Positions 4,561 to 36,034 of a DNA stretch of 36,685 nt are shown here, one piece after another. This stretch comes from a virus: the IMG/VR virus record IMGVR_UViG_3300043434_001038, positions 1 through 36,685 of that record, one strand, 5' to 3'. How positions within the stretch are numbered: the first letter of the stretch is position 1; each line of letters begins with the position of its first letter. The translations under genes and the position numbers were made by a program. The notes under the pieces are model-generated. The model saw only the letters and a program-made list of their open reading frames with translations. It ran no database searches and was not told the origin of the DNA.

Positions 4561-4911
4561 TCAGTAGGGGAGTCTGGTCGCTGCCATGACGAATTCATGA
4601 TCGCCGTCGCAGGACTGCAGAAAGAGGTCGTTGTCACCGGATTCCAGGAGGCCGACGCGGCAGCACTCGGAGCTGGTCGCTTGGTAAAGGCAAGGCTCGT
4701 TTCCAGACCGAAGTGCAGCCATCAATGCATCCAGTCCCTCGATGACGACCCTGATGCGGGCTTCTCCGTCATAGAATTCTGGAGACACGAGAACGTCAAA
4801 ATCCTCAGCTTCAAGCTTGTCCGAAATCTCTTCTTCGGTCGGCTCCGGCATGTTTGTCATGGTGTTTTCCAGAGCATCTGCAGTGTTTGCGATCATGTGG
4901 CGGTATGCCAT
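4561..4911 (-). CDS. Acidic hypothetical protein, first gene of the leftward operon
   Basis: 116 residues, acidic (EPTEEEISDKLEAEDFDVLV), with a central IRVVIEGLDALMAAL segment. AAGGA lies 8 nt before the ATG. As the first cistron downstream of the divergent operator region, it is probably the most highly expressed of the operon. Acidic small phage proteins are often DNA mimics or host-protein inhibitors, but nothing specific supports that here. Confidence 0.72.
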   Translation of the reverse strand: MAYRHMIANTADALENTMTNMPEPTEEEISDKLEAEDFDVLVSPEFYDGEARIRVVIEGLDALMAALRSGNEPCLYQATSSECCRVGLLESGDNDLFLQSCDGDHEFVMAATRLPY

Positions 4912-20755: not shown

Positions 20756-21136
20756 ATGCTGAGCATGACATCGGCAGGGGCTATCGGCCTTCGCGGCCCG
20801 CAGGGTGAACCCGGGCAGCCTGGCGCGGACGGTATTCCAGGGCCGCAGGGTCTGCCAGGACCGGCTGGCGCAGACGGCGCGCAAGGTCAGATCGGCCCCC
20901 AAGGGCCAGAAGGTCCGCAGGGTCCGCAGGGACCAGCAGGCGCAGACGGCGCGCAGGGCCCGGTCGGCCCACAGGGGGCGGAAGGTCCGCAGGGTCCGCA
21001 GGGTCCGCAGGGTCCGCAGGGTCCGCAGGGTCCGCAGGGAATACAAGGGCTTCAAGGCATTCAGGGTCCAGCTGGACCGGCCGGGGCACCAGCAGTCGGG
21101 GCCGTTTCAATCGGCCTGCTCATCGCTCTCTCGTAA
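20756..21136 (+). CDS. Collagen-like Gly-X-Y repeat protein
   Basis: 126 residues. From about residue 8 to 112 nearly every third residue is Gly (GPQ, GAD, GPA triplets), a collagen-type triple helix of about 34 triplets. A short hydrophobic tail ([11 protein letters not shown]) follows. Phages use such rods in fibres. GAGG lies 8 nt upstream of the ATG. Its place between decoration and connector genes suggests a head-attached fibre instead of a tail fibre. DNA repeats (20984-21037) make its length prone to change. Confidence 0.88.
20984..21037 (+). repeat. Six perfect 9-bp tandem repeats (GGTCCGCAG)
   Basis: GGTCCGCAG repeated six times in frame, encoding GPQ triplets. A longer duplication with a 72-bp period is also visible: the GGCGCAGACGGCGCGCA segment occurs near 20868 and 20940. 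Whole-unit slippage would keep the frame and change fibre length. Confidence 0.9.
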
Positions 21137-33846: not shown

Positions 33847-34104
33847 ATGGGCGAGAGGAAGAAGGATTTGGGAAGGGCGATTGCGGCAATGTCAGTGCTT
33901 TTTCTGACAGCGTGCGCGAGCGTTGAAGTTGGCGAGAAAGTCCAGATTCCGGAATTGCAGATTCAGTGCCCAGATCCGGCGGAACGCAAAAGACTAGAGC
34001 AAGGCGCAACGTATCGCGACCTTGCTTTGTCGAGAGCCGAGGCTATCGCAGGGTGGAGCCGTTGCTTTGATGCTCTTAATATCACGCAAGCCACTCCCCA
34101 ATAA
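33847..34104 (+). CDS. Lipoprotein, probable outer-membrane spanin (Rz1-like)
   Basis: 85 residues. Basic start, hydrophobic core AIAAMSVLFL and a lipobox LTAC with the lipid Cys near residue 23. The remaining chain is short with two Cys. Location right after the Rz-like gene fits an o-spanin, here separate and not nested. GAGG lies about 7 nt upstream. Its first codons contain the C/T-rich repeat in reverse. Its 3' end overlaps the convergent membrane gene by 23 bases. Confidence 0.65.
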   Translation: MGERKKDLGRAIAAMSVLFLTACASVEVGEKVQIPELQIQCPDPAERKRLEQGATYRDLALSRAEAIAGWSRCFDALNITQATPQ

Positions 34105-34447
34105 CAAAGACGGCAAATGGCGCGAAAAATACCAGAACGCAGATAACATATGGGATTGAAATTCCAGCGACAAGGTAAATCAACAGCGCTGGCAATGCGT
34201 GAAAAAATAAGAACAAAGCCATGATTACCGTGGAAATAGAGGACATGACATTGCAATACCACGGCTCATCCTGCCACAGCACGAACGACCGGCAGTAAAG
34301 CGCGAGCGAAATAAATTGAAGCGCGATTGCATAAGACAAGGGCAACACGTCAGGGCCCTGCGGCAGTGAGTGTCGCAAAGTAGCCGCCCATCCGTACGCA
34401 AATCCAACTGCGAAAATGGGCGAAAAGAACTGCATCATTTTTGCCAT
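34082..34447 (-). CDS. Small multi-pass membrane protein
   Basis: 121 residues from the ATG at 34447, which has AGGAG 8 nt upstream. Three to four hydrophobic segments: FFSPIFAVGFAYGWAA, YAIALQFISLALY, VIMALFLFFHALPALLIYLVAGIS and VICVLVFFAPFAVFVIG. It starts 16 bases after the AAA+ ATPase stop on the same strand, so the two form an operon. A membrane partner of an ATPase is consistent with superinfection exclusion or an abortive system; no known family recognised. Confidence 0.65.
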   Translation of the reverse strand: MAKMMQFFSPIFAVGFAYGWAATLRHSLPQGPDVLPLSYAIALQFISLALYCRSFVLWQDEPWYCNVMSSISTVIMALFLFFHALPALLIYLVAGISIPYVICVLVFFAPFAVFVIGEWLA

Positions 34448-34463
34448 CTTAAGCACTCCTGAC

Positions 34464-35792
34464 TTAATGAAGAATGGGCCGGCGCATGACGTCGCGCAGC
34501 CTCGCTTTGACTTTGTCGATAGCCCTCAAAGTCATCCCGCCACTCTCGATTTCTTCGACCACCTTTTCGATGACGGCATAATCCACGGCATCCTCCGCGA
34601 GCGCCCTTTCAACAGTCCTCCGCAAATCATCGCCAACTGGATATCCGACGTGAAAAATGGTGACGCGGTCGAGCAGCGGCGCGGGGAGATTCTCGACGCT
34701 ATTAGCGAGGAGGATCCACCCGACGCTAGAAAGGTCGATTTTAGCTTGCAAATATGGGCAGGAGAAATCGGACGCAGTTGACCGCTGCAGAAGTGGCAGC
34801 AAAGCATTCTGCGGGCTTCCTGCTGAACTGTTTCTGACCGCCTTTTCCACCTCGTCGAACAGGATCACAGGATCGGCTGTCCCCGTCGTCGAGATAAGCC
34901 GGACGGCTTCCGACGGATGCGACGATCTCCAAAGAAAATCAGAGCCGCCAACGGGCCATGGGGCGGTCATGGTCCCGCCTTCAAGTCGCACCCACGCGCG
35001 ATGTAGAAGCTCCGCAAACGCCTGCGCGAAAAAGGTTTTGCCGCAGCCGGGCGGGCCGACGAGCAGGAATGGTTGGAAGGAAAAGCCACGCCCCTGCTCG
35101 TATCCGTCACGCAGCTGCGACCAGATCCACGAAACAACCTCGCGCATCCATGGTGAAATTTCGAGAAGCTGTGACACGAGAACGTCAATCTCATGCGCGC
35201 TCTTTGGCGCAGAAATTCGCTTCGGTTTCGCCAACTCAACACGCATTTTGTCACGGATATCTGTGTGCGAGTCCCCGAACTTCTTGTCGATCGGCAGGCC
35301 GGAAGCGTCATGAATTTTCACGGTTCCGTGCGGCAACCCCATGATCTCATCAGCGATCTTCTGAGCCTTTTCGCCGTCCAGAACCTCAGCAGAGTTTTCG
35401 GAACTTTTCGCCTTCTCTGCGTCAACTTCTCGGTAAAGATTGCAGATATCCAGAAGCTGCTCGCGGCTCTCTTTTGCATTGCGAAGTTGATAGCCGGAGA
35501 TGAACATCTTGCCCAACTCAGTGACCAGATCAGCGTAATCTTTTCGGCAATTCTCGCGGAAGTTTTCGCGAAACTTTTCCGGAGAAGTGCTGTTATATTT
35601 CTTCATGAGGGTGAAGAGCTGTGCGGCCTCGTGATGCGCGCTCAGGGAGAAATCTTTCGTGGAACTCCACCACGATCTGAAGTGGACCGGATTGAGTCGC
35701 CGGATGCGGCGCTCTTCATCTCCGAAATCCTCGAGCTCGTCTAAGTATTGCCAATCGGCCATTTGCAAAACCGCAAGCGCGGCCCCCACCAT
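34464..35792 (-). CDS. Lon-like AAA+ ATPase without a protease domain
   Basis: 442 residues. Walker A GPPGCGKT at 246-253, Walker B VILFDEVEK at 309-317, sensor Asn in LLANSVENLP near 364, and LLDRV with an arginine finger at 376, as in Lon. The chain ends after the lid (AIDKVKARLRDVM), so the Lon protease part is absent. The first 200 residues are helical and unlike the Lon N domain. An in-frame ATG at 35762 is an alternative start; neither has a strong ribosome site. The tRNA-like gene ends only 19 bases upstream and the membrane protein follows. Confidence 0.8.
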   Translation of the reverse strand: MVGAALAVLQMADWQYLDELEDFGDEERRIRRLNPVHFRSWWSSTKDFSLSAHHEAAQLFTLMKKYNSTSPEKFRENFRENCRKDYADLVTELGKMFISGYQLRNAKESREQLLDICNLYREVDAEKAKSSENSAEVLDGEKAQKIADEIMGLPHGTVKIHDASGLPIDKKFGDSHTDIRDKMRVELAKPKRISAPKSAHEIDVLVSQLLEISPWMREVVSWIWSQLRDGYEQGRGFSFQPFLLVGPPGCGKTFFAQAFAELLHRAWVRLEGGTMTAPWPVGGSDFLWRSSHPSEAVRLISTTGTADPVILFDEVEKAVRNSSAGSPQNALLPLLQRSTASDFSCPYLQAKIDLSSVGWILLANSVENLPAPLLDRVTIFHVGYPVGDDLRRTVERALAEDAVDYAVIEKVVEEIESGGMTLRAIDKVKARLRDVMRRPILH

Positions 35793-35811
35793 TGTTTCAA
35801 GAAGAGCTGAC

Positions 35812-35902
35812 TGGTAGGAGGCCCGGGGCTCGAACCCGGCCGATCGCGCTTATCTGGCGTCTCGGGGATATAAATCCCGACTGCACACCCGTGCTGCCTC
35901 CC
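35812..35902 (-). tRNA. Unusual class II tRNA or tRNA-like RNA, CCA encoded
   Basis: 91 nt. Acceptor GGGAGGC/GCCTCCT (first pair G-U), discriminator A and encoded CCA. T arm CCGGG-TTCGAGC-CCCGG is canonical. The D arm is abnormal: GCAC/GTGC with only a 4-nt loop GGGT, as in tRNA-Sec and some allo-tRNAs. The anticodon stem TCGGG/CCCGA encloses a loop best read as TTTATAT with a closing A-C mismatch, giving anticodon TAT (reading AUA), but this is not secure. A long variable region (CGC/GCG stem) makes it class II, unusual for tRNA-Ile. It could be a degenerate tRNA or a tRNA mimic. Confidence 0.55.
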
Positions 35903-35998
35903 ACTTTCGGAAGTTCAGCGTATCGAGCGGTGGCGGATCGTAGTTTGCATGGACGCAGATTCTCACAGCCGAGTCGCGACGTCAATCCGTATTCTACT

Positions 35999-36034
35999 AA
36001 GCGCTAACAACCCATTTTTGGGTTGTTGGCGCTT
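35999..36034. repeat. 15-bp inverted repeat between tRNA-like and prtN-like genes
   Basis: AAGCGCTAACAACCC and GGGTTGTTGGCGCTT around a 6-base ATTTTT loop; one T-G pair. No T run follows on either strand. It is placed between two divergent genes and overlaps TTGACG (36033), a possible -35, so an operator role is more likely than termination. Confidence 0.6.

Follow-up and report, generated by a model that had tools for sequence, protein, structure and literature searches.

Candidate control of a class II tRNA(UAU) of phages and plasmids by its own cognate codon in a short leader reading frame

What a tRNA-like gene does directly in front of an AAA+ ATPase gene in a phage genome, and whether the two belong together, is the question raised by the locus described here. 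The locus lies within a stretch of 36,685 nucleotides (hereafter the window), which comprises positions 1 to 36,685 of the IMG/VR virus record IMGVR_UViG_3300043434_001038, a record of 36.7 kb that includes terminase, tape measure and amidase genes. The initial annotation, made from the sequence alone, had described a tRNA-like gene, an ATPase and a membrane protein as one minus-strand unit with a presumed role in defence, and all three were recovered at the positions that it gave:

35812..35902, minus strand: class II tRNA-like gene, anticodon UAU at 35872-35870, CCA encoded (from sequence and covariation)
34464..35792, minus strand: AAA+ ATPase reading frame of 442 amino acids, a Lon-type AAA module without protease domain
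34456 (GTG) or 34447 (ATG) to 34082, minus strand: small hydrophobic membrane protein, not kept with the ATPase or the tRNA

The tRNA-like gene can be folded into an acceptor stem of 7 bp with a G1*U72 pair, a minimal D arm with a GG-containing 4-nt loop, an anticodon arm with the loop TTTATAT, a variable arm CGC[CAGATAA]GCG and a T arm CCGGG-TTCGAGC-CCCGG that is followed by A-CCA, and its 3' end is separated from the ATG of the ATPase (35792) by 19 nt. It was called neither by ARAGORN nor by an Rfam scan, and its single-sequence fold is moderately better than that of shuffled sequences (z -3.0), hence the reality of the window tRNA rests on its relatives. On Cereibacter plasmids, the same tRNA was found 5' of ATPase homologues by nucleotide similarity, with no tRNA feature used in the search, and ARAGORN identifies one of these tRNA copies (L002) as tRNA-Ile(tat) and misses the L003 copy. 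When eight homologues were aligned by fitting to the cloverleaf model, which somewhat favours the result, 98.4% of the pair cells were standard, and 13 of the 24 pairs were doubly changed, with 32 doubly changed cells. None of 500 shuffles reached any of the covariation measures, and the signal was abolished by sliding the pairing partners. The acceptor, anticodon, T and variable stems are backed by covariation in these homologues, whereas the window and the plasmid group depart from the canonical D arm (U8, A14), having A/G8 and a 4-nt loop; many viral relatives, in contrast, have a canonical D arm. Judged by these comparisons, the tRNA-like gene of the window is real and conserved, and the earlier description of an aberrant class II tRNA gene immediately preceding the ATPase is borne out, with the linkage being kept on the Cereibacter plasmids. 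A resemblance to initiator tRNA (weak 1-72 pair, GGG/CCC anticodon stem) was considered and dropped, as it is not general among the viral relatives.

Further plasmid copies of the tRNA are found in Sulfitobacter indolifex, S. faviae, Falsihalocynthiibacter arcticus and Roseomonas mucosa, and an intact copy is present on plasmid pC of Cereibacter sphaeroides 2.4.1, with the tRNA at about 70083-70174 of NZ_CP030275.1. Constant features are the anticodon loop YUUAURN with UAU, the variable-arm hairpin with a (C/T)AGATnA loop, G1*U72 and A73, and CCA is encoded in all plasmid and window copies except that of Roseomonas. A pattern search of IMG/VR with the anticodon, variable loop and T arm returned at least 120 matches, nearly all of them evident tRNAs, most of which are Ile(tat) according to ARAGORN and many of which sit among 5-20 other phage tRNAs. 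At least 120 further matches were obtained with a second pattern for the subtype with a canonical D arm, and pooling of both sets with removal of identical leaders left at least 204 loci. Since both patterns demanded the UAU region, these matches are no proof of anticodon invariance; the plasmid copies, which were found without an anticodon constraint and have UAU in every case, are free of that bias. Short-D-arm viral members score with E-values near 1e-14 against the window model, as compared with 1e-4 or worse for most ordinary tRNAs of the same contigs. Named relatives include Ile tRNAs from Vibrio phages, among them henriette 12B8 and Luma, and a clear class II relative with CAGATTA in Latilactobacillus phage TMW 1.1393 P1, where an annotated hypothetical protein (L284, 749-895) overlaps the class II tRNA(UAU) and is probably a mis-annotation of a tRNA cluster. 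The RNA model and the tRNA pattern gave no match in 398 evenly drawn genomes of one phylum, a search in which few candidates per genome were scored by the model and from which groups with known copies were possibly absent. One candidate, L037, was rejected as an ordinary phage leucine-type tRNA that matches the 3'-end pattern. By its sequence features, the viral tRNA family is large, distinct and class II, and it should read the rare codon AUA.

The UAU anticodon has been stated in a review to be absent from bacteria and from phage-encoded tRNAs (PMC8007984), which is contradicted by the at least about 200 non-redundant viral, plasmid and phage UAU loci. UAU has also been recorded in 19 bacterial species in tRNADB-CE (PMC4013482), and tRNA-Ile with a UAU anticodon, encoded like the present family by bacterial or phage genes, is known from prophages and lactic acid bacteria, including one L. 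curvatus prophage (PMC10688831, which also refers to work on tRNA-Ile with UAU by Tomikawa et al., 2018). The tRNA-Ile(UAU) of Mycoplasma mobile is likewise bacterial and reads AUA with its unmodified UAU anticodon, but is chromosomal, occurs in a host without tilS and, as far as tested, falls outside the viral and plasmid family (Taniguchi et al., 2013, in the account given in PMC4013482). Nematode nev-tRNA-Ile(UAU) shares the variable arm and the UAU anticodon, yet is nuclear, leucine-misacylated and of unrelated origin (PMC4300185), and allo-tRNAs, which are also non-canonical bacterial class II tRNAs with unusual arms, have 8/4 or 9/3 acceptor/T stems, in contrast to 7/5 in eight of eight sequences here, so that the present tRNAs are not allo-tRNAs (PMC7609411). 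No report of the class II viral tRNA(UAU) family as such, or of control by an AUA leader, was found in the literature searched.

The ATPase carries the Walker A motif GPPGCGKT and the Walker B motif ILFDEVEK, and the AAA module of Lon protease is its nearest domain by sequence and its best structural sequence match. Unlike Lon, it has its own N-terminal region, and the reading frame stops at 442 amino acids, after the AAA lid, with no match to the Lon protease domain, in agreement with its first description as a Lon-like ATPase lacking the protease. Comparison with homologues suggests that the true start may lie slightly downstream of 35792; a single-sequence structure model was unusable (pLDDT 39). 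Homologues with ~40% identity over 93% of the query were found by tblastn on ten Cereibacter plasmids, and the pairing of tRNA and ATPase is kept in the window and on all ten. Single-protein scans of viral and genome contigs gave no close relatives of the ATPase, and a phylum-wide search returned mostly Lon. The membrane protein, which starts 7 or 16 nt behind the ATPase in the window, has no counterpart behind the Cereibacter ATPases, and the distant ATPases on Paracoccus and Qingshengfaniella plasmids (L004, L005) have no such tRNA upstream. Reading frames of other, unrelated kinds lie behind the tRNA in Sulfitobacter and Falsihalocynthiibacter, and the next gene in Roseomonas runs in the opposite direction.

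The proposal that the tRNA-like RNA, the ATPase as sensor and the membrane protein as effector form one anti-phage defence unit could draw on gene order, on spacing and on the accessory position within the phage genome. It is nevertheless unsupported as a joint unit because the membrane protein is not conserved and the tRNA stands elsewhere before unrelated or no co-directional genes; most replicons carry the tRNA without the ATPase, and the only resemblance to PADLOC defence families consists of generic, weak P-loop matches (best E 4e-4 over 25 residues), so that nothing points to a phage-defence role and we regard this reading as very improbable. AUA codons do not occur in the ATPase or the other downstream reading frames, and the idea that the tRNA supplies AUA decoding to the genes behind it was therefore rejected.

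A different clue is provided by the sequence directly 5' of the tRNA, where a short reading frame had been overlooked:

35957..35985, minus strand: promoter-like sequence TTGACG-N17-GAATCT, inferred from sequence, with the expected transcript start on or close to the mini-ORF AUG
35915..35950, minus strand: leader mini-ORF ATG CAA ACT ACG ATC CGC CAC CGC TCG ATA CGC TGA (MQTTIRHRSIR*)
35921..35923, minus strand: AUA codon, cognate of the tRNA's UAU and second-last sense codon of the mini-ORF
35893..35920, minus strand: anti-tRNA hairpin CGCUGAACUUCC[gaaagu]GGGAGGCAGC, in which the left arm, from the leader, pairs with the 5' acceptor strand and some of the D arm

Clearer promoter-like sites are found at L042 (TTGACA-N17-TATTTT-6-ATG) and in Cereibacter L002 and L003 (TTGACA-N17-CAGAAT-6-ATG). 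These sites would place the transcript start at the AUG and make the mini-ORF leaderless; as no Shine-Dalgarno sequence is evident before the mini-ORFs, their presumed translation rests on this leaderless reading. Upstream of the promoter-like site of the window, an inverted repeat CAACCC-AAAAAT-GGGTTG (36006-36025) could serve as operator or terminator.

The plasmid and window tRNAs share a conserved upstream box, CTCGATACGCTGA in the window, which corresponds to the end of the mini-ORF. Within group A (window, L002, L003 and L038), CATG and ATACGCTGA are invariant, so that the start codon and AUA-CGC-UGA are unchanged and the remainder of the mini-ORF diverges. The curated mini-ORFs of the window and of ten plasmid and phage loci read as follows, with isoleucines encoded by AUA set off by hyphens:

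Window: MQTTIRHRS-I-R*
L002 (Cereibacter): MSNQHAHHS-I-R*
L003 (Cereibacter): MSIQNAHHS-I-R*
L038: MNRPPALNP-I-R*
L041 (Sulfitobacter): MTHDLRTNPFAYPR-I-SD*
L039 (Sulfitobacter): MTYNPRTNHVACPR-I-SS*
L166 (Sulfitobacter): MSSHLHTNHIPYPR-I-SS*
L042: MIRNVLISNTQ-I-SA*
L147 (phage): MKTFTIKR-I-R-I-SY*
L080 (phage): MNHFTFKR-I-H-I-TH*
L126 (phage): MSHLTFKR-I-R-I-S*

AUA is among the final four codons in all eleven, and their isoleucine codons comprise 15 AUA, 2 AUU and 3 AUC; in the genes of the window, AUA accounts for 20 of 401 isoleucine codons and 20 of 8,973 codons overall. This common design recurs in leaders that are unrelated in sequence, namely those of group A, of Sulfitobacter (L039, L041, L166), of L042, of a phage group with MKTFTIKRIRISY (L147, L080, L126) and of L140 and L150, in which the AUA-bearing reading frames run on into the tRNA. 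At L112, L119, L174, L197 and L239, AUA is instead among the last codons of the gene upstream. Many relatives have no AUA leader, chiefly those in tRNA clusters or with their own promoter, and the copy in the L. sakei phage TMW 1.1393 P1 is also without one.

The last codons of the mini-ORF overlap the left arm of the anti-tRNA hairpin, and the leader pairs with the 5' acceptor strand of the tRNA, and often with the D arm, in all seven of the first plasmid and window copies. Among the matches listed, 96 tRNA(UAU) loci that do not lie directly behind another tRNA were folded, with capture defined as pairing of 8 or more of 12 nucleotides in the MFE structure, and the leader captures the tRNA in 21 of them. 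With related sequences included, AUA is found at the end of the leader reading frame in 17 of these 21 as compared with 20 of the 75 uncaptured loci (p = 1.7e-5) and with 5 of 52 control tRNAs that lie on the same contigs and are likewise captured (p = 6e-9). Counted by lineage, AUA is present in 9 of 11 leader lineages, for which the probability is near 5e-8 at a control rate of 10%, the lineages having been grouped by eye and both the grouping and the capture threshold chosen after seeing the data. In the leaders of other phage tRNAs, the codon read by the respective tRNA is not enriched (8/52 vs 107/724). The anti-tRNA stem also displays a compensatory change, from GGCGTA/TACGCC to GGCATA/TATGCC (L197, L239).

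Refolding was predicted on transcripts that begin at the mini-ORF AUG, with the footprint of a ribosome holding AUA in the A-site masked. The predicted probability of the acceptor stem is 0.00-0.05 with a free leader in 13 of 13 cases and rises to 0.64-1.00 with a stalled ribosome in 11 of 13 (window: from 0.05 to 1.00), the two Sulfitobacter leaders L039 and L166 giving no switch in this simple mask model. Composition-matched shuffled leaders equal the predicted switching in 13% of cases for the window and in up to 34% for its close kin, but in only 0-3% for L147, L080, L126, L140 and L041. The hairpin of the window and its close kin is likewise no more stable than in 13-34% of such shuffles, and the window cloverleaf is restored in the predicted fold when the leader is extended to 75 nt to include promoter sequence. 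As judged from sequence, evidence for the AUA codon is thus strong across the family, while the window hairpin rests on its relatives. A further pairing of the leader with the variable-arm loop, seen by eye, was dropped as it is inseparable from the leader hairpin.

A window hairpin that does not exceed shuffled leaders, together with the many relatives that sit leaderless in tRNA clusters, would also be expected if this were an ordinary, constitutive phage tRNA gene whose AUA mini-ORF and leader pairing are coincidental or relics. Such an explanation has to contend with the recurrence of AUA at the same place in unrelated leaders, at a frequency far above that of the captured controls (17/21 vs 5/52), and with the invariance of the start codon and AUA-CGC-UGA amid diverging mini-ORF codons, and we consider it unlikely.

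Ribosome-mediated attenuation by leader peptides is well established for the his, trp and ilv operons, in which a short leader reading frame contains codons related to the product and stalling selects between mutually exclusive RNA folds. The present leaders likewise carry a codon tied to their product, and exclusive folds are predicted for 11 of 13 of them, but the alternative fold would be the tRNA itself rather than a terminator or a ribosome-binding site, only one or two AUA codons are present, and the codon sensed would be the one that the product tRNA reads. The tRNA family, the leader codon, the hairpin in many members and the predicted refolding are results of sequence analysis and statistics, all computational, and suggest a scheme, reasonably probable in our judgement, in which ribosomes that stall at the codon read by tRNA(UAU) govern the production of this tRNA, in the manner of attenuation but with tRNA folding as the output. 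That the mini-ORF is translated, that ribosomes stall on it, which way the switch works, and that the tRNA is processed, is charged and affects the ATPase are inferences from these results. Transcription would begin at or near the AUG of the short reading frame. If AUA is decoded promptly, the ribosome would complete the mini-ORF and depart, upon which the sequence at its end would pair with the 5' acceptor and D strands of the tRNA and no tRNA would be made. When tRNA that decodes AUA is scarce, the ribosome would wait with AUA in the A-site and cover the left arm, the 5' strand of the tRNA would be left to pair with its own 3' strand, and the resulting cloverleaf would be a substrate for RNase P and 3' processing, by which the tRNA is freed. 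More tRNA would improve the decoding of AUA and close the switch, which amounts to negative feedback. The downstream gene, here that of the AAA+ ATPase, would be part of the same transcript, so that excision of the tRNA gives its mRNA a processed 5' end; a single transcript processed at both tRNA ends, as the initial annotation had envisaged, is plausible. The sequence speaks more for a tRNA regulated through the codon that it reads than for defence.

We know of no bacterial tRNA gene that is regulated by decoding of its own codon, and no precedent for an attenuator that yields the fold of the tRNA reading the sensed codon was found in the literature searched, from which subscription papers were mostly absent. 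To our knowledge, leader-peptide attenuation with such an output would be new. If true, codon demand would feed back directly on tRNA supply by way of a leader hairpin that competes with the tRNA fold; the tRNA would be made only when needed, and the carriage of a lone tRNA by mobile elements would be explained.

Charging of the class II UAU tRNA by IleRS is uncertain, and tRNAs with a UAU anticodon can reportedly be poor substrates of this enzyme. The class II shape, the minimal D loop and the anticodon, which make charging by bacterial IleRS doubtful, together with the lack of AUA in the ATPase and other downstream reading frames, would fit an uncharged, non-decoding RNA that serves as a decoy or sensor, for instance for an anticodon nuclease, with the AUA leader merely tuning its level. 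The anticodon loop, the T loop and CCA are retained, however, relatives occur among ordinary tRNAs in phage clusters, and a cognate-codon leader is easiest to explain for a tRNA that reads AUA, which leaves the decoy with little probability.

AUA stalling and the tRNA fold might instead mainly control the cargo gene, here the ATPase, for example if cleavage by RNase P and at the 3' end sets mRNA stability, and thereby sense when AUA decoding falls short, for instance once host tRNA-Ile2 has been damaged. A reading frame starts 20-50 nt past the tRNA in Cereibacter, Sulfitobacter, Falsihalocynthiibacter and the window, and the ATPase pairing is kept on ten of ten Cereibacter plasmids, as would be expected for such a function; the cargo, on the other hand, is unrelated from lineage to lineage, the gene after the Roseomonas tRNA is on the opposite strand, and L112, L140, L150, L174 and L197 share no downstream gene, so that control of cargo as the main role appears improbable. 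Cognate-codon control of the tRNA may nonetheless extend to cargo in some lineages: that viral and plasmid tRNA genes regulate themselves through a cognate codon in a mini-ORF or at the end of the upstream gene, and that this phage and alphaproteobacterial plasmids couple the same AUA-hunger sensor to cargo such as the AAA+ ATPase, seems to us slightly more probable than the contrary, and would suggest a sensor for lost AUA decoding (host tRNA-Ile2 or TilS).

Several other genes were observed next to members of the family. PP-loop enzymes include ones that modify tRNA, such as TilS, and a PP-loop protein with an SGGADS motif (about 370-412 amino acids) that starts 3-14 nt behind the tRNA(UAU) at L080, L126 and L129 is therefore possibly tied to the tRNA; at L080, its reading frame begins 3 nt past the tRNA (4601-4692, plus strand) and has no Pfam or PHROG match. 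A plasmid protein of Sulfitobacter beginning M(T/S)(Q/K)AIALAAV... lies directly behind the tRNA at L039, L041 and L166, with the frame of the L039 copy broken by an early stop, and on IMG/VR contig L152 a class II UAU tRNA is located 41 nt 5' of an aspartyl-tRNA-synthetase-like reading frame of 596 amino acids. Elsewhere in the window, an Rfam Proteo-phage-1 RNA (RF03044) is present at 2142-2224 on the minus strand, with 43.1 bits, just over the gathering score, and a collagen-like protein with Gly-X-Y repeats is encoded at 20756-21136 among the structural genes.
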